A stretch of DNA of 50,026 nt from Crocinitomicaceae bacterium (GTDB lineage: Bacteria > Bacteroidota > Bacteroidia > Flavobacteriales_D > Crocinitomicaceae). The notes beneath the pieces are model-generated. The model was not told the DNA's origin, did no database searches, and was given only the letters and a program-made list of their open reading frames with translations. The position numbers and the translations under genes were made by a program. Location of the stretch: contig JAQXCN010000034.1 of assembly GCA_029251865.1 (NCBI GenBank), positions 1 to 50,026 of the forward strand, given 5' to 3'. Below are positions 1 through 46,762 of this stretch, in pieces (position 1 is the stretch's first letter; the number at the start of each line of letters is the position of its first letter).

Positions 1-1851
1 CGTTTCATCAGTTGCACATTGTCCTGCATCAGGTGTAAATGTATATGTTGTAGTTGCTGTATTGTTAATGGCTGGGAACCAAGACCCAACGATACTGTTT
101 GTCGAAGTTGAAGGAAGAAAAATAGTACCTCCTGTACATGTAGCAAGCACTTGGGTGAATATTGGTTCAATTTCTTGGTTTACGTCTACCGTAAGGCTCT
201 GTGTGGTAGCACACTGTCCTGCATCTGGGGTGAAGATATAGTTTGTAGTCGCTGTATTGTCCACCGCTGGTGCCCATGATCCTGAGATACTATTCGTACT
301 TGAACCCGGTAAGCTTAATGCATCTCCACTACAGATTGCTGGAATAGGATTGAATGTAGGAGAAATATTCGCATTATTGACTGTAATGCTAATGTTTTCT
401 TCAGCTGTAATCGTACATATTGAACTGGTAACAAGAGCGTTAATGTTTACGATTCCGTTTGAAATACTCGGGATATAAGTTGTGTTTTCGTTTGAGGGTT
501 CTGTAAATGACCCAGAGGTTGCAGACCAGTTAATACTTGTTCCCAGGCCTGAAATTATAGCTGCAAAATTCGTGTCGTCACCGGCGCAAAGGGTTAGATC
601 ACCAATTGGTTCAATACTCGGAGCTTCTCTTATGACAATGGTCATTGTGGTTCCACTCGCACATTCATCAGCATTTGGCGTAAAGGTATATGTTGTAGTA
701 TTAATATTATCTGGAGCTGGTGACCATGCTCCTTCGATCCCGTTTAAACTGGTATTTGGTAAGTTGATGGATTCTCCTTCACATACATAAGGAATATTTG
801 TAAAGCTTGGAGATACTGAGTTATTTACAGTGAGATTAACGGCCTGAGAAAAAGTACAGCCAGGTGTAGTTTCAAGTTGTATATAAAATATGCCTGAATT
901 AAATAATAGGTTCGGATTAGTTACTGGGTTAGTACATTGTGAGTTGTTCCAATAAGTTAAATTTCCAGATTCACTTCCCGCTGTTATTGGTGCATCAGTA
1001 ATATTTCCAATTCCACAAAAGGCAGGAGGGTCTGTGACGATTAAATTGGGTGTAGTACAAATGCAAGTCGGACTTGGTATGCTTGTTTGCATTTCGATAT
1101 CACAGATAGAATGAATTTGAGTTGCACCACCCGAAGAGGATGTAAACCCCCAATAAACTGAGGAGGGAGACGCGAAGAAAGAGCGAATGTCTCCATTATA
1201 TGAGGTTACGAGCGTACCATCAAAATATACTCGGTATTGTAAAGCAAAAGGATTCCATGTAATACATATATCATGATCATTCCCATCTACAACTGAATTA
1301 CCTGATGGGAGCAGGCAATCCGGCCCAGCGACAGTAGCTGAACTATTGGTCGAACCGTTTATTTGAATTGAACTGTGGTTACAAGGAATATCATTATCTC
1401 CAAAAGAAGCGCCATTGTAAGTGTCAAATTCAACCGCTACACTAGGATCGATGGGACAAGCTCCTCCTTGACAGTTTATTGGATTTCCAGGTGCATAACC
1501 CATTCCTCCGCCTGTCCCCCCCAATACATTTAATCCTTCACCTTGAAGCACAAAGGCAATACCATCACCCGTGAGTTGGTTTGAACCAAAATTGGCTTTG
1601 AAGTTCAATTTGAAACTTTGATATAAACTAATTGTATTACATACCCATAAAGCACCTTGCTGAAAATTACCTGCAGCATTCATGTCTATGCAACTTCCAT
1701 TCGTGCCTGCTGTGCCCACGAGTTGATATGTGTTAGCATCACAAGTACCAGAAGTTTGATTTAAACTTGTACCATTTAAGGTGATAGTTTGACAAAATAT
1801 AAGGGGTGCGAAAAGCACACCGCAAAGCGATAATATGAGTGAGTAATACAA
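1..1851 (-). CDS. Secreted L-type lectin-like adhesin with tandem Ig-like repeats (3' end outside window)
   Basis: An uninterrupted reverse-strand frame of 617 codons runs off the left edge. Predicted residues 1-20 are a signal peptide ending FC/Q. Residues about 21-255 resemble an L-type lectin fold: GDGIAFVLQG, then VAVEFDT (the legume-lectin beta-chain pattern), DGNDHDICI and SVYWGF. From about 270 on come repeats of 65-80 residues, the clearest with the pattern C-x-G-x(5)-LP...GxWxPAxxNTxTTxYxFTPDAGQCAT, as seen in large Bacteroidota surface proteins exported by T9SS. It probably binds glycans outside the cell; the ligand is unknown. The only in-frame start is TTG at 1851, two codons after a stop. 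A GTG at 1873 in the next frame reads MNTKLLTLVLLTHIIAL, a better signal-peptide n-region, so a one-base frameshift near 1800-1850 is possible. A sorting domain would lie beyond the edge. Confidence 0.8.
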   Translation of the reverse strand, partial: MYYSLILSLCGVLFAPLIFCQTITLNGTSLNQTSGTCDANTYQLVGTAGTNGSCIDMNAAGNFQQGALWVCNTISLYQSFKLNFKANFGSNQLTGDGIAFVLQGEGLNVLGGTGGGMGYAPGNPINCQGGACPIDPSVAVEFDTYNGASFGDNDIPCNHSSIQINGSTNSSATVAGPDCLLPSGNSVVDGNDHDICITWNPFALQYRVYFDGTLVTSYNGDIRSFFASPSSVYWGFTSSSGGATQIHSICDIEMQTSIPSPTCICTTPNLIVTDPPAFCGIGNITDAPITAGSESGNLTYWNNSQCTNPVTNPNLLFNSGIFYIQLETTPGCTFSQAVNLTVNNSVSPSFTNIPYVCEGESINLPNTSLNGIEGAWSPAPDNINTTTYTFTPNADECASGTTMTIVIREAPSIEPIGDLTLCAGDDTNFAAIISGLGTSINWSATSGSFTEPSNENTTYIPSISNGIVNINALVTSSICTITAEENISITVNNANISPTFNPIPAICSGDALSLPGSSTNSISGSWAPAVDNTATTNYIFTPDAGQCATTQSLTVDVNQEIEPIFTQVLATCTGGTIFLPSTSTNSIVGSWFPAINNTATTTYTFTPDAGQCATDET

Positions 1852-5005: not shown

Positions 5006-5932
5006 TTACTCTACTTTTTGTTTGATGACTTGATAGATTTCCCAAGTTGTTTGATTAAAAGCACAAATTAGTAAATGCATGTTTGATGCATTGTATATTC
5101 CATCGAGTTGGTTTGGTACTTCAAAACTGTAATTGATGAGATATTTTTCGTTGACTAAATTTTCGCTTGTAATTTCGCGCCCAAAGGTTTCATTATTTAA
5201 ATTACCTCTGTGTATGTCTCGATGCGTGTAAGAGGAGTTGTGTGAATTATCTGACATTTTCTGGTCTCCTACGAGCGAATCTTCAAGTAAATAAACCATA
5301 ATAGATAGGTCATCTGTAACATTTGCATCCAATGGGTCAACTTCAACGTGCAAGAATGCACCTTTTGTTGCTTCATAATAATTAAGTTGTGCCTGGAGGT
5401 TTACTTTTAAATCATTATTAGTAATAATTTCATTTGTCATACTTGTCCATTGTGCTGGGCTTTGAAAAACCGTGCTATTCGTAACGCGATTTACAGTTCC
5501 TCTCGGATTCCCTGGAAAGCCCCCATCATTTTCACCGAAATACTGCCCGATTTCAACGCCTTGCGGATTGGTGAAATCTGTGGGGTAGTCTGGAGGTGAG
5601 ACAGCCTGAAAGTCTCCAATGCCGTCTGGTCCTGCGTGAATCCCAACAGAAAAGACACTTGACGGATTGGCCATATGAAGGTCATATGCAAGTTCTGCGG
5701 CTGCAGGACAAAACACACATTTGTGCCCTGTGAAATCCTCAATAATTACATTTCTTTGTGTATTGGAATTTGCCGCAAAAGTTGGCCATTCGTTGTTTTC
5801 ATAATCTGACCAATCACCTGGATATAAAGAAGTGTCAAGGTCAATACTTACCGTTGGAGGATAAGGGTTTTCCACATGGTCACAAGAACATAGAATGAGA
5901 AAAAGAATACCTATTGAAAATAAATTACACAT
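5006..5932 (-). CDS. Omp28-like outer-membrane lipoprotein with CxxC motif
   Basis: 308 residues. A lipoprotein signal peptide ends in LCSC with Cys17 as the predicted lipidated residue. The segment NVIIEDFTGHKCVFCPAAAE (C72 and C75) is the thioredoxin-like CxxC region typical of Omp28-related proteins of Bacteroidota, followed by a predicted beta-rich C-terminal domain. The exact function of the family is unsettled; thiol exchange or surface binding are both possible. It is the last gene of a three-gene reverse-strand operon after TlpA and DUF6029, two bases from the DUF6029 stop. No T9SS sorting domain is visible. Confidence 0.8.
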   Translation of the reverse strand: MCNLFSIGILFLILCSCDHVENPYPPTVSIDLDTSLYPGDWSDYENNEWPTFAANSNTQRNVIIEDFTGHKCVFCPAAAELAYDLHMANPSSVFSVGIHAGPDGIGDFQAVSPPDYPTDFTNPQGVEIGQYFGENDGGFPGNPRGTVNRVTNSTVFQSPAQWTSMTNEIITNNDLKVNLQAQLNYYEATKGAFLHVEVDPLDANVTDDLSIMVYLLEDSLVGDQKMSDNSHNSSYTHRDIHRGNLNNETFGREITSENLVNEKYLINYSFEVPNQLDGIYNASNMHLLICAFNQTTWEIYQVIKQKVE

Positions 5933-11744: not shown

Positions 11745-12476
11745 TTAAGCTTCTTTTGTAGATGCTACTGCTAAGGAATAAACAACTAAACCAAATCCGA
11801 TTTTGTTGATTGCATCACCAATGTTGTAAATTACATCCATTGCTAATTCCATTCCGAAGATTTCACCTGCTTCACCGTACCAGCCAGCAGTTCCTACCAT
11901 GTACCCTAAAGGATAAATTGCCCATCCAATAAGGACGAATTTACATAACATGTTGTGTGCGTTCAATACTGAACCTCCTGCTTTGGTTGCTAGCGCTTTT
12001 GCCTCTCCAAACATTATTAAATACACTATGTAGAAGTATGCAAGACCAGAAATTAATCCCCACATCGCTGCATTAGCCGTGTCAACTCCTTCACCCCAGT
12101 ATCCTGTTACTAACATTACTACTGAAGCACCGATTAAAGTCCACATTAGTTTTTGCGTTGCTCCCGCTGCTTTCAAAATCAGGTAGAATTCCACACACAT
12201 TAACGGAACAGTCAAAATCCAATCCACATATCTAAAGAACGTTGGCGATTCTCCTGTAGACGCCCAATAATCACGCATGTAATAATAGTGAACAGCGGCG
12301 ATGAAGGTAATCAAACCGGAAACAAGAATAGAAGTTCTCCATTTTCGGTCAAATGAGTTCATAGATAGAAAAAAGAAGGCAGCGGCTGCCATCATTGCCA
12401 TACATCCTACAAAGAATGTAAAGCCAACGTAATCATCGGTAGCCATTTTTGGTACCATAAGCATTAAATTATTCAT
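11745..12476 (-). CDS. Proteorhodopsin, light-driven proton pump, Met-tuned (green type)
   Basis: 243 residues with seven predicted membrane helices. Helix C reads RYVDWILTVPLMCVEFYLIL: D85 (proton acceptor), T89 and E96 (proton donor) form the DTE motif of outward H+ pumps. H63 matches the conserved His next to the counterion. K225 in DAINKIGFG is the retinal Schiff-base lysine. M93 occupies the spectral-tuning site (position 105 of the reference protein), and Met there goes with green absorption in flavobacterial proteins. No typical signal peptide is evident. The gene is monocistronic, with its own terminator and a 312-bp upstream gap. No beta-carotene dioxygenase (blh) or crt gene is in the window, so retinal must come from elsewhere. 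Confidence 0.97.
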   Translation of the reverse strand: MNNLMLMVPKMATDDYVGFTFFVGCMAMMAAAAFFFLSMNSFDRKWRTSILVSGLITFIAAVHYYYMRDYWASTGESPTFFRYVDWILTVPLMCVEFYLILKAAGATQKLMWTLIGASVVMLVTGYWGEGVDTANAAMWGLISGLAYFYIVYLIMFGEAKALATKAGGSVLNAHNMLCKFVLIGWAIYPLGYMVGTAGWYGEAGEIFGMELAMDVIYNIGDAINKIGFGLVVYSLAVASTKEA

Positions 12477-25223: not shown

Positions 25224-27893
25224 ATGAGAATAATTTTTATTTTCTTTTTCGCTTTTTGTGTGTTTGAGGCTTTTGCCTCTCACATTATAGGTGGCGATAT
25301 TTACTATGACGATTTGGGTGGGGGCAACTATCGTTTTTTTATAACCCTTTATCGAGACTGCAATTCAGATGGAGCTCAATATGATGATCCTTTGAAACTT
25401 TCAGTTTACAAGCAAAATCAAGATTTATACCAAACGGTAGATGTCTCATTTCCAGGTAGTGATTTTGTCCCAATAGACTTTAATAATCCTTGTGCGACTC
25501 CTCCTTCTGGGATTTGTGTTGAACGTGCCGTTTATCAGAAAGTTTTAAATTTACCTCCAACTGTTGGAGGGTATTGGATTACCTATCAAAGATGTTGTAG
25601 AGGCCCTGATATTGTTAATATTATAAATCCAGATGATACTGGTTTGACTCTAACGACTCATATTCCCGGTTCTGAAACAGGGGTTTCTAATAACAGTAGC
25701 CCGAGGTTTTCAAATTACCCACCTTACTTGATTTGTAATAATGATGAGTTGATTTTTGATCACTCTGCTACAGATCCCGATGGTGATGTATTGGTGTATT
25801 CCTTAGCCACGCCATTTTCGGGTGCGGATTCTTTTAATCCAGCACCAGAAATAGCACCTCCTCCTCCTTATTTCCCTATACAATGGACGGCTGGGTTTAC
25901 AGCACAGGCACCATTAGGACCTAATGCCATAACCCAACTGAACAATGCTGGAACACTTACCGTAAACCCTAATTTGATAGGATTGTTTGTTGTTGGTGTT
26001 CGCGTAGAAGAGTATCGAAATGGGATTCTAATTGGAGAGACCATTCGTGATTTCTTATTTAAGGTGTTTGATTGCAATATCTCGATGCAGGCGCTACTGC
26101 CGTTACAAGAGGAATTGTCTACGTTTGTTTCCTACTGTCAAGGATTAACGGTGCAGTTTGAGAATAATTCATTTGGTGGTTCGTCCTATGCATGGGATTT
26201 TGGGGTTACTGAACAAGCAACAGATGTAAGTAATACCTTCACACCAACTTACACTTACCCTGCACCAGGTGATTATTTAACAACCTTAATTGTAAATCCC
26301 GGGATGGAATGTACAGATACGGCGTTTATGAATATTACTGTGGGCAACCCTTTTGCTGTAGCTTGGACTGCGGAGGATTCAATATGTATTTTAAACAATT
26401 CATTTGAATTTAATGTCGAAACAAGTAATCAAAATGCAAACTTTGAATGGACTTTTGATGGTGATGCAACAATTCTAACTTGGTCGGGTTTAGATGTTCC
26501 AAGTATCAGTTTTTCAAGTCCAGGTTTTCATACAGTTGCCTTATTTGCTGACGATGGCGATTGTGCGACCATATTTGAAGATTCAATTTATATTTTTAAT
26601 GAACCAATAGTAGATATTGTTATTCCGGATGACATAGCCTGTAATGGTTTGACTGTAACATTCGAAAGTTCCCTATCCGATGTTTCAAATACCCTTTGGG
26701 ACTTTGGTGTGGAAAATACAACAACAGATCAAAGTAGTTTATTTAACCCTACTTTTATTTTCGAAGATCCAGGTTCTTATACTGTTCAACTCATTGGAAG
26801 TAATGCCCCTGGCTGTGCAGACACCTCATGGGTAAATATCGATTTAAACGAACCCATAGTTCTTTCCTTTACGCATAGTGATTCTCTTTGTATAACCGAT
26901 GGGTTATTTGCTTTTGACGCGGAGGTTAGTGGTCCAGAGGGCACCGTTTATTTGTGGGATTTTGGTTCAAATGCCTCCATCCAAAATACAAATGAACTCG
27001 CTGTTTCGGGTATACAATTTTCAACCTCTGGTTTTCAAGAGATTCAACTGTCTGCAGCCAACGAAACTTGTTCAGATTCTATTCAGGCGGAACTCTACGT
27101 ATTTTCAGAGCCCATTATAGATTTTGATGTCTTTGATAATGAGTTGTGTGCGCCGAGTGTGGCCCAGTTTATCAATCAAAGTCAGGTTGAAGGACAGGTG
27201 GTTTATCAATGGGATTTTGGTGACGGTTTGACATCAAATGACTTTAATCCTTTTCATACGTACACATCTATAGGAAGTTTTAGTGTTGGTTTAACATTGA
27301 TGGCCTTAGAAGGATGCACTGATACTTTGTATCTGCTAAGTCAGGACGCGATAAGTATTAATCCCTCCCCAGTCGCAGCGTTTTCAGTTAATCCCGACCG
27401 AATTGATGTTTGCGACAATGAAGTTTCATTTATAAATGAGGCTGTAGGAGCTATATCCTTTATCTATCTCTATGACAGTGGTCAGTTTTCCACAACCGAA
27501 GCAGATTTTGACCATTCATATACACAAGGCGGCTCAGATTACCCAATGCAGATTGTATTTAATGAATATGGCTGCTCAGATTCTGTACGAAACGAAGTCT
27601 TTGTTGAGCCTTTTACCATTTATATACCAAATACTTTTATTCCAGATGGAGATGGTGTTAATGATTCCTTTGTCCCTATTACAGATTTTGATATTTATGA
27701 ATGGGAGTTTAGTATTTTTAATAGATGGGGCAATCTGATTTTTGTAAATACAGATGTCGATAGTTCCTGGGATGGTTATGTAGACGGGGAAAAAGTCGAA
27801 GATGGCACTTATATTTATACATTAAAATACAAATCATGTGCAAATCCTATTGAGACAAAAATGATTCAAGGGTTTGTTAATGTTTTACGTTAA
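25224..27893 (+). CDS. Large secreted PKD-repeat protein with T9SS type B (gliding-associated) C terminus
   Basis: 889 residues. The signal peptide ends FAFA/S (no Gln after the cut). An N-terminal beta-rich domain (about 20-285) with [14 protein letters not shown] and several Cys precedes four or five PKD-like domains ([26 protein letters not shown] motifs). The C terminus is the type B sorting domain: [40 protein letters not shown]. Type B proteins are exported by T9SS, often with a PorP/SprF partner, which is not encoded next to it. It is probably a surface adhesin or filament component. The stop overlaps the convergent lptB stop by 4 nt. Confidence 0.88.
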
Positions 27894-32038: not shown

Positions 32039-32353
32039 ATGCCAAAATTTCAGATTCAAAAACTAGAATTTAATTCCCTAAATGATTGGATTGAACTCCA
32101 GGGAGATATCGTCAAAGGATTTTTAACTAGTGCATACACAATTAAAATTGACGTTTCACAAATCAACACTGTTCTGAACGCGATTCAAAGAATTAATCCT
32201 GAACAATCCATATACGATTTTTACACGTCCCATACTTTAAACGACTTTAGTTCGTACAAGTTTGATTTTGAAAAAATTGAGTTTAGGGAATTATCTTTTT
32301 CCGCGCTCAAGGAAGAGGCTCCGTTTGAAGAACTAAGAATGATACGTGCTTAG
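32039..32353 (+). CDS. Hypothetical 104-residue cytoplasmic protein
   Basis: I do not recognise the family. The protein is soluble, without a signal or membrane segment, and is rich in Phe, Ile and Leu with regular alternation suggesting an alpha/beta fold (FQIQKLEF, IKIDVSQINTVLNAIQ, FDFEKIEFRELSF). It begins at ATG 32039; upstream codons in the open frame are weak. The stop overlaps the convergent lipoprotein stop by 4 nt. A -7 box precedes it. Real coding is supported by its length, start context and lack of a better frame. Confidence 0.6.
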   Translation: MPKFQIQKLEFNSLNDWIELQGDIVKGFLTSAYTIKIDVSQINTVLNAIQRINPEQSIYDFYTSHTLNDFSSYKFDFEKIEFRELSFSALKEEAPFEELRMIRA

Positions 32354-32730
32354 GGTTGAATAAAAACCGTTTCTTCGTTGATTTGTTCTGGTTCTATTTT
32401 GATGATACCTTGACCAATTTTATTTAACAATTGTGCCTTAATATCTAATACAGCAACCCCGGCTTGACCAAGTTGATAAATGTCGTTGTAGTTAAAAGTT
32501 GCTAAACCTGCAGCGTTTGTATAAGCTGTATCGTATACTGCTACAAGCTGAACAGGCGGATTTTGCGTGTTTGTTCCATAAAGCACTACCATAGCGCCTT
32601 CAACAACTGCATTTCCTTCATCTCTTACGTAGATGTTTGCGATAGTATCTTCTTTCTTTTTACAGGCAGTCATTCCTATAAATAGAACTGCGATTAGCAT
32701 GATCGGTAATAATATTTGCTTCATTTTCAT
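32350..32730 (-). CDS. Lipoprotein with transthyretin/CRD-like domain (tandem paralogue 3 of 3)
   Basis: 126 residues: lipoprotein signal ending MTAC with Cys23, then one Ig-like domain: YVRDEGNAVVEGAMVVLYG, DTAYTNAAGLATFNYNDIY and GQAGVAVLDIKA. This pattern of a variable hairpin followed by TNxxGxATF is seen in carboxypeptidase-regulatory and transthyretin-like domains. The +2 residues KKKE make it positively charged. It is 6 bp downstream of the next paralogue. Function unknown. Confidence 0.75.
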   Translation of the reverse strand: MKMKQILLPIMLIAVLFIGMTACKKKEDTIANIYVRDEGNAVVEGAMVVLYGTNTQNPPVQLVAVYDTAYTNAAGLATFNYNDIYQLGQAGVAVLDIKAQLLNKIGQGIIKIEPEQINEETVFIQP

Positions 32731-32736
32731 GACGGC

Positions 32737-33105
32737 TTAATTTGGTAAATAAATAGTTTCAACGGAAGTAGTATGAATTCTACATCTTGTATAACCTGCT
32801 GCTTCTTTTGTGTTCGATTTAACTAAAATATCGAAATATCCTGTTGTGTTCTCTGGTCCTGAGACGTCAAAGTATTCGTTCATATCAAAGGTGGTAAAAC
32901 CAGAGCTATTTGTAAATGTTGTATCTACATAAGGCAACGTAGCAGGGTTAGATTGTTGATCTCCTATGATAATAACTTTAGCCCCATAAACCAATTGGTT
33001 AGTTGAGGATCTCACAAATACCTTCAATATCGCTGGATCTTTCGATGTACAGCCCGTGAAAATAAGTAGTGTCAGAGTGAAACTAAGGATTAATATTTTT
33101 TTCAT
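32737..33105 (-). CDS. Lipoprotein with transthyretin/CRD-like domain (tandem paralogue 2 of 3)
   Basis: 122 residues: lipobox FTGC (Cys19) and the same one-domain layout: FVRSSTNQLVYGAKVIIIG, DTTFTNSSGFTTFDMNEYF. It aligns with its neighbours over the whole domain, but the C-terminal strand differs (TTSVETIYLP). It is probably in the outer or inner membrane leaflet facing the periplasm. It is 69 bp downstream of paralogue 1 and 6 bp upstream of paralogue 3. Confidence 0.75.
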   Translation of the reverse strand: MKKILILSFTLTLLIFTGCTSKDPAILKVFVRSSTNQLVYGAKVIIIGDQQSNPATLPYVDTTFTNSSGFTTFDMNEYFDVSGPENTTGYFDILVKSNTKEAAGYTRCRIHTTSVETIYLPN

Positions 33106-33174
33106 CGTTCTAGTTGAGATTTCAAAGTTAAGCTAAATATTTTTTAATTCTATTACGTATTAAATCTAAAAGTG

Positions 33175-33534
33175 TTACTGAAGGATTAAATCTGCTTTGT
33201 TATCAATACCTTCATTAAGTTCAACAACGGTCTCGTCGTATAGATTATTGGACTGAACACTCACCTTCACAATCGCCACTCCAGTTTGACCTGCTTTATA
33301 GACCTCATTCAAATTAAAAAACGCAATACCATTGTTATTCGTTGCTTTTTCATAATCAATTAGTAATGGTGTCTCTTCTGTATTTGCCGTTGGTTCTGCT
33401 AAAACCTCTACCAATACTCCAGGAACCAAATTACCTGCTGTGTTTTTCACTTCAATTGTGAGACTTGTAGTTTTTGATCTGTAACACGATGAACAAATCA
33501 ATATTAAACCGAAAAGAAAACAAGAAAATCTCAT
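33175..33534 (-). CDS. Lipoprotein with transthyretin/CRD-like domain (tandem paralogue 1 of 3)
   Basis: 119 residues: lipobox CSSC (Cys17) and one domain: EVKNTAGNLVPGVLVEVLA, ATNNNGIAFFNLNEVYKAG and GQTGVAIVKV. It shares the LxEVYKAGQTGVAIVKV / NDIYQLGQAGVAVLDI pattern with paralogue 3. It is divergent from pheS, whose -7 box lies about 25 bp upstream of this start. Confidence 0.75.
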   Translation of the reverse strand: MRFSCFLFGLILICSSCYRSKTTSLTIEVKNTAGNLVPGVLVEVLAEPTANTEETPLLIDYEKATNNNGIAFFNLNEVYKAGQTGVAIVKVSVQSNNLYDETVVELNEGIDNKADLILQ

Positions 33535-33558
33535 TGAGTATCAAAAACGTTTTTGTTG

Positions 33559-33566
33559 TACTTTTG
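33559..33566 (+). promoter_or_regulatory. -7 box (TACTTTTG) for pheS
   Basis: A perfect TAnnTTTG match in the divergent lipoprotein/pheS region. A TTG at 33534-33536 is 22 bp upstream, acceptable for a -33 box. It supports ATG 33610 as the start, leaving a leader of about 40 nt. Confidence 0.5.
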
Positions 33567-33609
33567 TATAATACAATTAACCGGAACTAAAAGTTACAGC
33601 GATTTACCT

Positions 33610-34632
33610 ATGAAGGAACAGATTCAAAATATTGAAAATCAGTTGTCGAGTTATAAATTCAAGGCCTCAGAAGATGTTGAGAAATTTAGAATTCAGTTTT
33701 TAGGATCTAAGGGTCAAATAAAAGGCCTTTACGCGCTACTGAGAGACGTTCCTAATGACAAGAAAAAAGAAAGCGGACAACTTATAAATGCGCTTAAGCA
33801 AAAAGCTGAGTCTTTGTTCGAGGCTGCTAAAAAAAACCAAACATCATCTCCCGTAAATAAGTTGAAAGAGGATTTGACGAGACCTGCGCCAGATTTAAAA
33901 TTAGGAAGTCATCACCCACTTTCCATTATTCGGCGTGAAATTGTAGATGTTTTTAAGAAAATTGGTTTTTCAATTTCAGAAGGCCCAGAAATTGAAGATG
34001 ACTGGCATAATTTTTCGGCACTGAATTTTCCTCCCGAACATCCTGCTCGCGATATGCAGGATACTTTCTTTATTGAAAAAGGGGAAAATGAGATTGCGTT
34101 GAGAACCCATACGAGCTCAGTTCAAGTAAGAGTTATGGAAGGTTCCGAACCGCCTATTCGGACAATATCTCCAGGTAGGGTCTATAGAAATGAGGCGATT
34201 TCAGCGAGAGCGCACTGTTTCTTTCATCAAATTGAAGGTCTTTATATCGACGAAGGTGTTTCGTTTGCGGATCTGAAGCAAACACTCTTATTTTTTGCCC
34301 AAGAAATATTTGGAGCAAAAACAAAAATAAGATTACGTCCAAGCTACTTTCCATTTACAGAGCCAAGTGCCGAGGTTGATGTGTCTTGTACCATTTGTAA
34401 GTCAAAAGGATGTAATGTTTGCAAATACACGGGTTGGTTGGAGATTCTCGGTTGCGGAATGGTAGATCCAAACGTTTTAGAAGCATCTGGAATAGATTCT
34501 AAAAAGTACTCAGGATTTGCTTTTGGAATGGGGGTTGAAAGAATTGCTCAACTCAAATTTAAGGTGAATGATCTGAGAATGTATTCTGAAAATGATCTCC
34601 GCTTTTTAAATCAATTTAAATCTACTTTATAA
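33610..34632 (+). CDS. pheS: Phenylalanine-tRNA ligase alpha subunit
   Basis: 340 residues. N-terminal coiled coil (about 1-85), then the class II catalytic core: motif 1 region HPLSIIRREIVDVF, EGPEIEDDWHNF, motif 2 RTHTSSVQVR...ISPGRVYRNEA, and motif 3 GFAFGMGVERIAQLK. Three Cys pairs (CTICKSKGCNVC) are a local cysteine-rich insertion. The open frame extends 19 codons upstream; I chose ATG 33610. It works with PheT, not present here. Confidence 0.97.
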   Translation: MKEQIQNIENQLSSYKFKASEDVEKFRIQFLGSKGQIKGLYALLRDVPNDKKKESGQLINALKQKAESLFEAAKKNQTSSPVNKLKEDLTRPAPDLKLGSHHPLSIIRREIVDVFKKIGFSISEGPEIEDDWHNFSALNFPPEHPARDMQDTFFIEKGENEIALRTHTSSVQVRVMEGSEPPIRTISPGRVYRNEAISARAHCFFHQIEGLYIDEGVSFADLKQTLLFFAQEIFGAKTKIRLRPSYFPFTEPSAEVDVSCTICKSKGCNVCKYTGWLEILGCGMVDPNVLEASGIDSKKYSGFAFGMGVERIAQLKFKVNDLRMYSENDLRFLNQFKSTL

Positions 34633-34965
34633 ATGGCATGGGAATCCTTAGATGACTTATCAATTTTGAGTCAAATTAATAGCTCTCCGGAGTCTCAAAT
34701 AATTTTTAAGCATAGTCCCAGATGTGGCATATCTTCCATGGCACTTCGAAGATTTGAGAAATCTGATTTATATAAAAGTGGCAACTTCAACTTTTGGTTA
34801 TTAAATGTCCTTGAAAATCGTGAGCTATCAAACAGCTTAGCATCAGAGTTTAATGTCCGTCATGAGTCACCTCAAGTAATGGTTTTTCACGATAGAAATC
34901 TAGTTCATCATGCATCACATTCATATATTGATGCAGAAGAGATAGCACGGATTTTAAAGAAATGA
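34633..34965 (+). CDS. Bacillithiol-system monothiol bacilliredoxin YtxJ-like
   Basis: 110 residues with a thioredoxin-like fold. The single active Cys is in HSPRCGISSMA, and the segment ESPQVMVFHDRN holds the cis-Pro loop. YtxJ-type proteins are thought to remove bacillithiol from protein thiols; bacillithiol is used by many Bacteroidota. It starts directly after the pheS stop and ends one base before the next gene, so all three are one operon. Confidence 0.85.
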   Translation: MAWESLDDLSILSQINSSPESQIIFKHSPRCGISSMALRRFEKSDLYKSGNFNFWLLNVLENRELSNSLASEFNVRHESPQVMVFHDRNLVHHASHSYIDAEEIARILKK

Positions 34966-34966
34966 T

Positions 34967-36097
34967 ATGAAAAAAATAGGAGCATTTCTTTTAGCTATTG
35001 TCTTAGTTGTTGCCTTCATACTACCTTATTTGCAAACTGAAGATACGCTTCCTTTGAACGAAGCTAATTTTCGTTTTGAATCAGCGCAGAAATATTTTTC
35101 GGTAAAACGCGGGGAAGACTTTGTTTTTGATTGTTTGGATATGCAGGGTGTTGATTTGTTACAGCTAGAAATTGATGGTTCAAATGTTAAAACCTGGAAT
35201 TTGGATTCAAATGAAAAACAAGATTTTTCTTTTTCAACTAAGGACCTTAAGCTAGGAACTTATTCTATTGAATTAAAAGCTTTTAAAGGCGATGTGCTTA
35301 AAGGAGCAGATGGTGGAAGGTTTTTAAATGTAAATGCTGAAGAAGGCCCAATTAAACGAAACTTTGATATTGTTGCAACTCACCCTCACAACCCTGAAAA
35401 TTTCACTCAAGGGTATGAGTTTTACAATAATGTATTATTCGAATCTACAGGAAACCCGAACCAAACAAATGCAACAAAGGTAGCTCGAATTGATACGAAT
35501 ACCGGAGCTTCGATTAGTGAAGTATCACAACCAAATCCAATTTTTGGAGAAGGTATCACTATCCTTGAATCTAAAATATATCAAATTTCTTGGCAAGATA
35601 AGAAGTGCTTTATCTATGATGTATCTGATTTACGGCTCATAGACTCTATGCGTTATGATGGGGAAGGTTGGGGACTGTGTAATAATGATGAGTACATTAT
35701 TATGTCAAACGGAACAAATGAATTAACAGTTAGAAATCCTGAAACGTTTGAAGTAATCGAAACAATTAAGGTTCATTCTGATAGAGGCCCCGTTACAAAT
35801 TTGAATGAGCTAGAATATTATAATGGAAGAATTTATGCCAATATTTGGATCAGCGAGCAACGAAAACAATTCGATTCAAGAATGGATTTGAGGCGGATTA
35901 TTGTTATCAACCCAAAATCCGGGGCTGTTGAAGAATACCTTGATATTGAGAATATTATTAGAGGTTCTAATGTTCAAAATGTACCCAATGGCATAGCCTA
36001 TCGCAAAAGTTCAAATTCGTTTTGGATTACAGGAAAGTATTGGGATAAGGCTTTTGAGCTGCAGCTTACATCTAAAAATAAAGAGGACGCGCAATAA
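34967..36097 (+). CDS. Glutaminyl-peptide cyclotransferase (beta-propeller type), membrane anchored
   Basis: 376 residues. Residues 5-24 are one hydrophobic segment, so the protein is probably an inner-membrane-anchored or exported enzyme. About 40-125 is an Ig-like extra domain. The C-terminal part is a five-bladed-propeller cyclase of the plant type: NFTQGYEF, YDGEGWGL, LNELEYYNGRIYANIW and NVPNGIAY. It converts N-terminal Gln to pyroglutamate. Many exported proteins of this window have Gln at the mature N terminus. Its end overlaps the convergent DUF2279 gene by 26 nt. Confidence 0.85.
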   Translation: MKKIGAFLLAIVLVVAFILPYLQTEDTLPLNEANFRFESAQKYFSVKRGEDFVFDCLDMQGVDLLQLEIDGSNVKTWNLDSNEKQDFSFSTKDLKLGTYSIELKAFKGDVLKGADGGRFLNVNAEEGPIKRNFDIVATHPHNPENFTQGYEFYNNVLFESTGNPNQTNATKVARIDTNTGASISEVSQPNPIFGEGITILESKIYQISWQDKKCFIYDVSDLRLIDSMRYDGEGWGLCNNDEYIIMSNGTNELTVRNPETFEVIETIKVHSDRGPVTNLNELEYYNGRIYANIWISEQRKQFDSRMDLRRIIVINPKSGAVEEYLDIENIIRGSNVQNVPNGIAYRKSSNSFWITGKYWDKAFELQLTSKNKEDAQ

Positions 36098-45172: not shown

Positions 45173-46762
45173 ATGAAAAAAGGACTGTTTGCGCTTATTG
45201 CTTTGTTAATGCCTATTGTAACTTTTGCTCAAGAAGACATGGGTTTAGACCAAAAAATTGATCAAGCATTTAAACCAATTTCTGATTTCATTTCAGGAAT
45301 AATATTTTTTGAAGTTTTTGACGGTGCGCCATTTGTGATCATTCTTTTGGTTTGTAGTGCTTTGTTTTTTACGCTGTATTTTGGATTCCCAAATATTCGT
45401 TTTTTTGGTAAAGCTATTAATGTTGTAAGAGGCAAATATGACCATGTAGACCATGCATCGTCTGGGGACAGTAAATTGGCTATTGACGGCGATATTAAAG
45501 ATACCATTGCTGATGAAAGCAAAGAAGGAGAGGTGACTCATTTTCAAGCCTTAGCTACGGCTGTTTCTGGAACGGTCGGTAATGGAAACATCGCGGGTGT
45601 TGCTCTGGCGATTGCTCTTGGTGGCCCTGGAGCTACCTTTTGGATGGTTGTATGTGGCTTACTCGGAATGTCTTCTAAGTTTGTAGAATGCACGCTTGGT
45701 GTTCAGTATCGAGACATCGGCGAAGACGGCACGGTATATGGCGGTCCGATGTATTATTTAAGCAAAGGTCTAAAGGAAAAAGGTTTTGCTCTGTTAGGTA
45801 AAATAACTGCAGTTCTTTTTGCTATATTCTGTATCGGGGGTTCTTTTGGTGGTGGAAATGCAGCACAAAGTAACCAAGCAACAATTGTATTAAAGGAACT
45901 CATGGGGTGGGATAGCACCAGTGCTGGAGCAATTATCGGTGTCGTTTTAGCAATTTTAGTTGGGATAATAATTATTGGTGGCATTAAGAGAATTGCTTCT
46001 GTTACGGAAAAAGTAGTCCCGTTTATGGCTGTCTTGTATTTGGCGGCTTGTTTGTATATTATACTTACTAATTTCAGCTTGGTAGACGATGCTTTTTCTT
46101 TGATTTTTCGTGAAGCATTTAACCCTCAGGCCATTGGTGTGGGTGGAGTGATAGGCGTTTTATTGGTTGGTTTCAAAAGAGCTGCGTTTTCTAACGAGGC
46201 AGGAGCTGGGTCAGCTTCTATTGCACATTCTGCCGTAAAAACAAAGTATTCAGCATCAGAAGGATTGGTTGCTTTGCTTGAGCCGTTTATTGATACGGTT
46301 GTCATATGTACAATGACAGCGCTAGTAATTATCATTTATAACTTCGGTGGTGCTTTTGAATACGGCGGTGAAGGATCTGTAATGATAGATGGGGTTGCAT
46401 ATGAAGGCGCAGGAATCACCTCCAAAGCCTTTGGTCAGTATATACCCTACTCCAATGTATTCCTCACAGTCGCCGTTGTCTTATTTGCGGTGTCAACTAT
46501 GATTTCATGGTCGTATTATGGTCTGCAGTCTTGGAAGTTTTTATTTGGTAGAGGAAAAGCTGCAGATTTGGCTTATAAGTTCTTGTTTTTAGGGTTCGTT
46601 GTAATTGGTGCTGCAGCCAGTATGGATTCTATTTGGGGATTTTCGGACGCTATGATTTTTGCAATGGTATTTCCAAATATGGTCGGCTTGTTTTTCCTTT
46701 TCCCAATTGTAAAAAAGGAGCTTTCTCGTTACTTAAGTGCAATAAAAGGGTCAAAGTCATAA
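45173..46762 (+). CDS. Alanine/glycine:cation symporter (AgcS family)
   Basis: 529 residues. An N-terminal signal-like segment ends TFA/Q. SGTVGNGNIAGVALAIALGG (a family signature, with GNGN where GTGN is common), GPMYYLSKGL, FSNEAGAGSASIAHS and about ten membrane helices fit a sodium:amino-acid symporter that imports alanine or glycine. It has its own weak -7 box (TATCTTCG, one mismatch). Confidence 0.93.
   Translation: MKKGLFALIALLMPIVTFAQEDMGLDQKIDQAFKPISDFISGIIFFEVFDGAPFVIILLVCSALFFTLYFGFPNIRFFGKAINVVRGKYDHVDHASSGDSKLAIDGDIKDTIADESKEGEVTHFQALATAVSGTVGNGNIAGVALAIALGGPGATFWMVVCGLLGMSSKFVECTLGVQYRDIGEDGTVYGGPMYYLSKGLKEKGFALLGKITAVLFAIFCIGGSFGGGNAAQSNQATIVLKELMGWDSTSAGAIIGVVLAILVGIIIIGGIKRIASVTEKVVPFMAVLYLAACLYIILTNFSLVDDAFSLIFREAFNPQAIGVGGVIGVLLVGFKRAAFSNEAGAGSASIAHSAVKTKYSASEGLVALLEPFIDTVVICTMTALVIIIYNFGGAFEYGGEGSVMIDGVAYEGAGITSKAFGQYIPYSNVFLTVAVVLFAVSTMISWSYYGLQSWKFLFGRGKAADLAYKFLFLGFVVIGAAASMDSIWGFSDAMIFAMVFPNMVGLFFLFPIVKKELSRYLSAIKGSKS

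Follow-up and report, generated by a model that had tools for sequence, protein, structure and literature searches.

A plant-type glutaminyl cyclase with a predicted transmembrane anchor, and Gln-led exported proteins, in a Crocinitomicaceae genome

The glutaminyl cyclase gene and its product

The window analysed here is a stretch of 50,026 nucleotides from a Crocinitomicaceae bacterium (contig JAQXCN010000034.1). A run of three forward-strand genes, pheS, brxC and a glutaminyl cyclase (QC) gene, is laid out as follows, with the predicted parts of the QC listed below the genes.

33553–34632 (+): pheS, phenylalanyl-tRNA synthetase alpha subunit, named by eye; first gene of the pheS-brxC-QC run
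34633–34965 (+): brxC-like monothiol bacilliredoxin (PF11009, E 3.3e-27), immediately upstream of the QC gene
34967–36097 (+): plant-type (type I) glutaminyl cyclase, 376 aa, with transmembrane (TM) anchor, Ig-like domain and propeller catalytic domain
34967–35038 (+): predicted N-terminal TM anchor, residues 1–24, from sequence and an AlphaFold2 helix at 2–22
35054–35344 (+): predicted Ig-like/FnIII-like beta-sandwich, residues 30–126, from a separate structure prediction; joins anchor to propeller
35345–36067 (+): propeller, residues 127–367, with papaya-equivalent active-site residues by alignment to 2faw

The original prediction called this enzyme a plant-type beta-propeller, and family match, fold and four conserved papaya residues all bear this out. 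Pfam family PF05096 (Glu_cyclase_2) covers residues 127–367 with an E-value of 6.6e-73 and a score of 245.6 bits, against a curated cut-off of 22.3 bits. The AlphaFold2 model, built on 47 aligned sequences, has a mean pLDDT of 91.7 and consists of three parts: the N-terminal helix, a beta-sandwich at residues ~43–123, and a propeller from residue 129. The top five Foldseek matches are the solved type I QCs from Xanthomonas (3mbr), Zymomonas (3nol), papaya (2iwa and 2faw) and Myxococcus (3nok), which share the propeller; 3mbr is the best PDB match, with a TM-score of 0.92 by target length and an rmsd of 1.9. Unlike the propeller, the TM anchor and the Ig-like domain lie outside the matched region, and sequence matches to the solved enzymes begin at residues 126–134. 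The type I active-site residues, papaya Q24 (or E), E69, N155 and K225 (PMC5837995), correspond to Q148, E195, N280 and K357 when the 2faw alignment is counted through, and these four do not vary in alignments of 27 and of 47 QCs. Keeping the named residues is described for the plant type as strongly suggestive of QC activity (PMC5837995). A search for viral relatives of the enzyme confirmed none.

Modelled by itself, the sandwich has seven strands and a pLDDT of 87.5. Its best structural match is to residues 315–410 of the GH157 entry 9fz9 (Z 11.1), followed by N-terminal parts of chitinase A (9.4). The predicted fold is that of an ordinary Ig/FnIII-like module and, because such modules are common, we claim no function for it. 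Long QCs sampled from the families labelled f3, f5 and f6 have ~110–120 residues ahead of the propeller, as does the QC of the window. A 12-residue insertion in the propeller, RKQFDSRMDLRR (35861–35896, +), is seen in none of the remaining 26 rows of the 27-QC alignment, outside which the five closest relatives fall; model confidence drops to 79–86 near it.

A predicted helix in place of the usual lipid anchor

An N-terminal membrane anchor had also been proposed for the QC, and three features agree with it: no lipobox, a hydrophobic core and the modelled helix. In the N-terminal sequence, MKKIGAFLLAIVLVVAFILPYLQTEDT, the first Cys comes no earlier than residue 56, so a lipobox is lacking, and by eye there is no small-x-small cut site past the core. 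The anchor is made up of KK, the hydrophobic core and a Pro near the core's far end. Judged from sequence and model, the enzyme is apparently held by an uncleaved TM helix instead of a lipid. Such an anchor departs from the Bacteroidetes norm: most QCs there are predicted to be lipoproteins, with a sorting fate that is difficult to foresee, and among plant-type orthologs the predicted lipoproteins number 376 of 430 (PMC5837995). Neither this rarity nor the Ig-like domain and the gene order figured in the original prediction.

We compared anchors within the window's own GTDB family (f1, probably Crocinitomicaceae) and in other families of Bacteroidota. PF05096 matched in 58 of 60 f1 genomes, and 56 N-termini were read, excluding the window, the G042 fragment and a second, 30-residue match in G039. 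These comprise 26 TM anchors without a lipobox, 28 lipoboxes and 2 mixed cases with a Cys behind a TM-like core. The phylum sample held 198 genomes, 52 with a match; with two f1 genomes and three weak matches set aside, 49 QC rows from 47 genomes remained; lipoboxes were read in 48 of them and TM anchors in none, one row being ambiguous. The contrast of TM against lipobox between f1 (window counted) and the other families gives a Fisher value of 1.1e-9, a figure that serves only as a guide since the surveyed rows are kin. Labels were assigned by script and, in nine rows, fixed by hand on inspection; before this correction f1 had 29 lipobox, 25 TM, 2 unclear and 1 none, and the other families had 47 lipobox and 2 none. 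Among the 80 closest loci, picked by closeness to a TM-rich alignment and possibly overlapping the f1 sample, 69 are TM, 9 lipobox and 2 mixed.

Could the N-terminal segment be an ordinary cleaved signal peptide, and the QC a soluble periplasmic enzyme? A loose small-x-small-polar pattern within residues 17–34 does occur in 19 of 81 distinct TM-type N-termini, but the core of the window's QC runs straight into PYLQTED, where no usable -1 position has a small residue, a Pro after two hydrophobic or small residues stands within residues 13–32 in 62 of the same 81, and other families carry a lipobox instead in 48 of 49 rows. We regard a cleaved signal as improbable and retain the uncleaved helix.

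Three QC N-termini (L158:2815–3885, L161:3001–4071 and L059:1125–2195) combine a TM-like core with a poorly matching lipobox Cys (FRSC, AKSC) and, as far as sequence can tell, may represent steps between the two kinds of anchor. The f1 lipid-anchored QCs average 2.14 D/E at positions +2 to +6 behind the lipid Cys (28 rows), as against 0.87 in other-family QCs (47 rows, with one obvious mis-cut) and 1.03 (n=30) and 0.83 (n=12) in general lipoproteins from a pair of f1 genomes. Many TM-type linkers are likewise acidic by eye, and for that reason nothing is built on this acidity.

Direction of the anchor change

A quick tree was computed from 98 propeller sequences with the anchor removed: the 56 f1 sequences, the window, 17 of the 80 closest loci and 24 outgroup rows, the latter being every second row from the other families. 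Lipoproteins make up all 24 outgroup rows and also the 10 rows of the f1 group that branches first, so that the simplest reading of these sequences makes the lipid anchor ancestral and the TM form derived, although the branch at the tree root is weak (support 50). The minimum number of changes between the two states is 8, with three rows combining TM and Cys omitted; starred branches require at least 2 changes for the TM label and at least 3 for the lipobox label. When the 39 TM rows were forced together against the 55 others, the test gave p 0.07; a single origin is not rejected, and several switches are therefore not established. Our claim from these sequences is a gain of the TM anchor at least once.

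One recognised cyclase in the genome

The window's system resembles the Q-rule pathway of Porphyromonas gingivalis, in which Gln follows most signal peptidase I (SPI) sites and the one QC, PgQC, is membrane-tethered (PMC5837995, PMC10653852). The enzymes differ: PgQC is an animal-type (M28-like) lipoprotein, whereas the QC of the window is a plant-type propeller, apparently on a TM helix (PMC5837995, PMC10653852). The original prediction relied on there being no second cyclase to do the job, and a search of the genome brought no clear one to light. PF05096 occurs once, at 34967–36097, and the three PF04389 (M28) proteins, C7, C36 and C5, are peptidase-like or lack an export signal. C7 matches the aminopeptidases 2ek8 and 6hc6 (1.7e-14, 4.7e-14), C36 matches Peptidase M28 3iib (1.2e-67), and no signal sequence is visible by eye in C5.

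These proteins bear on the idea that bulk cyclization is done by another enzyme, or occurs spontaneously, and that the QC of the window has a narrower job. Human QC is akin to such M28 aminopeptidases (PMC5837995), and C7 is weakly similar to human QC entries at its C-terminus (residues 367–423, E ~2e-5), but its aminopeptidase matches are far closer, the peptidase match of C36 and the missing signal of C5 also speak against the idea, and PMC10653852 attaches little in vivo significance to spontaneous cyclization. We rate this idea marginally below the cleaved signal peptide and keep the propeller enzyme as the cyclase.

Two f1 genomes yielded no PF05096 match. One, G055, is an assembly 82% complete. 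The other, G022, gave none in a profile search, and the two of its seven M28 matches that were searched are both only weakly QC-like. We rejected G022 as a Q-rule genome without a cyclase: its contig C20 stops inside an apparent QC gene (L240:2–1565) of which the first 154 residues are present, with the lipobox FQAC, and the apparent loss is thus an assembly artefact.

Glutamine after the signal-peptidase site

Read by eye from the lists of open reading frames, 12 of 13 judgeable exported non-lipoproteins in the window have Gln right after the cut, the count that had been put forward at the outset.

1–1851, 5935, 7609, 28637, 36072 (all -): exported, Gln after cut, by eye
8240, 14968, 15986, 20972, 38580, 41865, 45173: exported, Gln after cut, by eye

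An internal Met was taken as the start of 7609 and 28637. The weakest of the 12 is 1–1851 (-), with a site LIFC/Q (the slash marks the cut), a TTG start and a reading frame cut by the window edge. The lipoproteins at 5006, 32350, 32737 and 33175 were left out of the count.

A site predictor of our own, which is crude and scores positions -3 and -1 and the polarity of +1 to +4 but not Gln itself, placed Gln at +1 in 7 of 11 proteins of the window (binomial P 1.3e-8 at a proteome Gln content of 3.3%), some of its non-Gln calls there being visibly misplaced. The proportion was 22/34 (P 1.4e-24) in 20 other genome stretches (~291 kb), 29/53 in G022, and 3/17 in four 50-kb stretches of E. coli K-12. 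A cruder first predictor, which kept multi-span proteins in and did not weigh polarity, gave 6/13, 20/59 and 26/83 for the window, the genome sample and G022, and 1/4 for one E. coli stretch. By position in the genome sample (n=34), Gln occurs 22 times at +1, 0 at +2, 7 at +3 and 0 to 5 times at each of +4 to +8; of the seven at +3, four come from cuts plainly set two residues off. Gln thus stands at +1 of most predicted SPI substrates, by eye and by this predictor.

An artefact of cut-site picking is very unlikely as the source of this excess: the predictor and the by-eye reading both prefer polar residues after the cut, but N, E, D and K, which are just as polar, seldom stand at +1 in the genome sample (0, 1, 1 and 1 of 34), the E. 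coli stretches run through the same script stay low, and published Q-values exceed 48% in 332 of 334 Bacteroidetes species (PMC5837995). The tie to the published Bacteroidetes Q-rule proposed in the original prediction holds in that Gln is in excess at predicted cut sites and a QC is encoded which, by sequence and model, is tethered to the membrane by its TM anchor.

The only exception in the window, as first noted, is the PKD protein at 25224–27893 (+), which carries a CHU_C type IX sorting domain. Matches to it were found in 12 of 118 genomes, and the mature start is kept in this family as X-His-x-x-Gly-[Gly/Ala], mostly HI.GG. The residue before the His is S, T, N, R, A or H and never Gln in the 20 of 21 matches that were read by script, two of the matches being from the window's own genome. 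Our guess is that this family might need its N-terminus free and His as the second residue, e.g. for metal binding.

The protein at 45173–46762 (+) is a polytopic transporter, sodium:alanine symporter-like by eye, in which a cleavable-looking signal peptide is followed by Gln (TFA/QED). Among this transporter and its relatives, Gln is at the mature start in 12 of 17 starts readable by eye, from 20 of 24 matches looked at, many of which match only past residue 50. Pyroglutamate on inner-membrane proteins is stated as untested in PMC5837995.

Proposed mechanism and placement of the enzyme

We propose, with a probability of about 0.88, that the single recognised QC, fixed in the inner membrane by an uncleaved helix, cyclizes new N-terminal Gln behind SPI. 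The family, fold, active-site residues and anchor type that enter this reading, together with the surplus of Gln at predicted cuts, were drawn here from sequence and model. In the proposed sequence of events, Sec would export the preprotein and SPI would cut before Gln; the uncleaved helix of the QC would keep the enzyme in the same inner membrane, with the Ig-like domain as a stalk that may space the propeller away from the bilayer; and the propeller would close the newly exposed N-terminal Gln to pyroglutamate, with release of ammonia. For QC activity, its periplasmic side and the protection of mature proteins, we infer from other Bacteroidetes: P. gingivalis cannot do without QC activity, and its exported proteins appear to gain stability from pyroglutamate (PMC10653852).

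Earlier papers describe the Q-rule, plant-type QCs in Flavobacteriia and the membrane tether, so that the core finding is already known; the Flavobacteriia enzymes, such as Nonlabens NsQC, belong to the same propeller family as the QC of the window (PMC10653852). The new detail is that about half of the f1 QCs examined are, to judge by their N-termini, on a protein helix and not on the usual lipid. In the open-licence PMC literature we found no report of a TM-for-lipid exchange in QCs and no paper joining Crocinitomicaceae with glutaminyl cyclase; a narrow search there for glutaminyl cyclase joined with immunoglobulin-like and beta-propeller found none, and one for QC with lipoprotein, transmembrane and Flavobacteri returned only PMC5837995, which has "transmembrane" once, in a reference title.

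PMC5837995 and PMC10653852 could not settle whether the QC must sit in the inner membrane. With relatives in f1 that carry the same enzyme on a lipid or on a TM anchor, the family offers a natural experiment on QC placement. Bacteroidota have a Lol system (PMC11885536) and a surface lipoprotein export signal, K-(D/E)2 (PMC5080379). A tentative reading, which we consider rather doubtful, is that in f1 a TM helix replaced the lipid so that the QC escapes Lol and lipoprotein-export sorting and stays by Sec and SPI. If this were true, the selected rule would be a QC tethered in the inner membrane, the lipid being one way to achieve it. In P. gingivalis, NsQC carrying a P. gingivalis lipobox turned up in the outer membrane yet still supported growth (PMC10653852), so that an inner-membrane place is not strictly needed there, which speaks against the strong form of this reading. 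The plant-type Alistipes QC, AiQC, gave no recovered mutants in P. gingivalis (PMC10653852). Both outcomes also weigh against the mechanism proposed above, as does the one exported protein of 13 in the window that departs from the Q-rule.

Gene neighbourhood

Within 3 kb on either side of the QC gene, the 80 closest loci have a BrxC match in 80 cases and a PheS tblastn match in 78, and in the eight best BrxC rows brxC ends just before the QC start. The f1 sample has BrxC in 47 of 56 and PheS in 42 of 56, all 26 TM forms included. Neither was found in the 48 other-family QC stretches (0/48 each), which reach a few hundred bases upstream and have room for an adjacent brxC but not for a whole pheS. 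In G192 (f6), brxC lies ~13 kb from the QC gene. In G022, with genes named by eye, the order is pheS, brxC, a response-regulator gene and then the QC. From these sequences, the pheS-brxC-QC order looks like a family trait, to which we assign no function.

Adjoining pheS, three small lipoproteins of like build lie in a row at 32350–33534 (-), and the lipoprotein at 33175 has a match in 69 of the 80 closest loci. Elsewhere in the window, the gene at 11745–12476 (-) encodes a seven-helix protein that is proteorhodopsin-like by eye.
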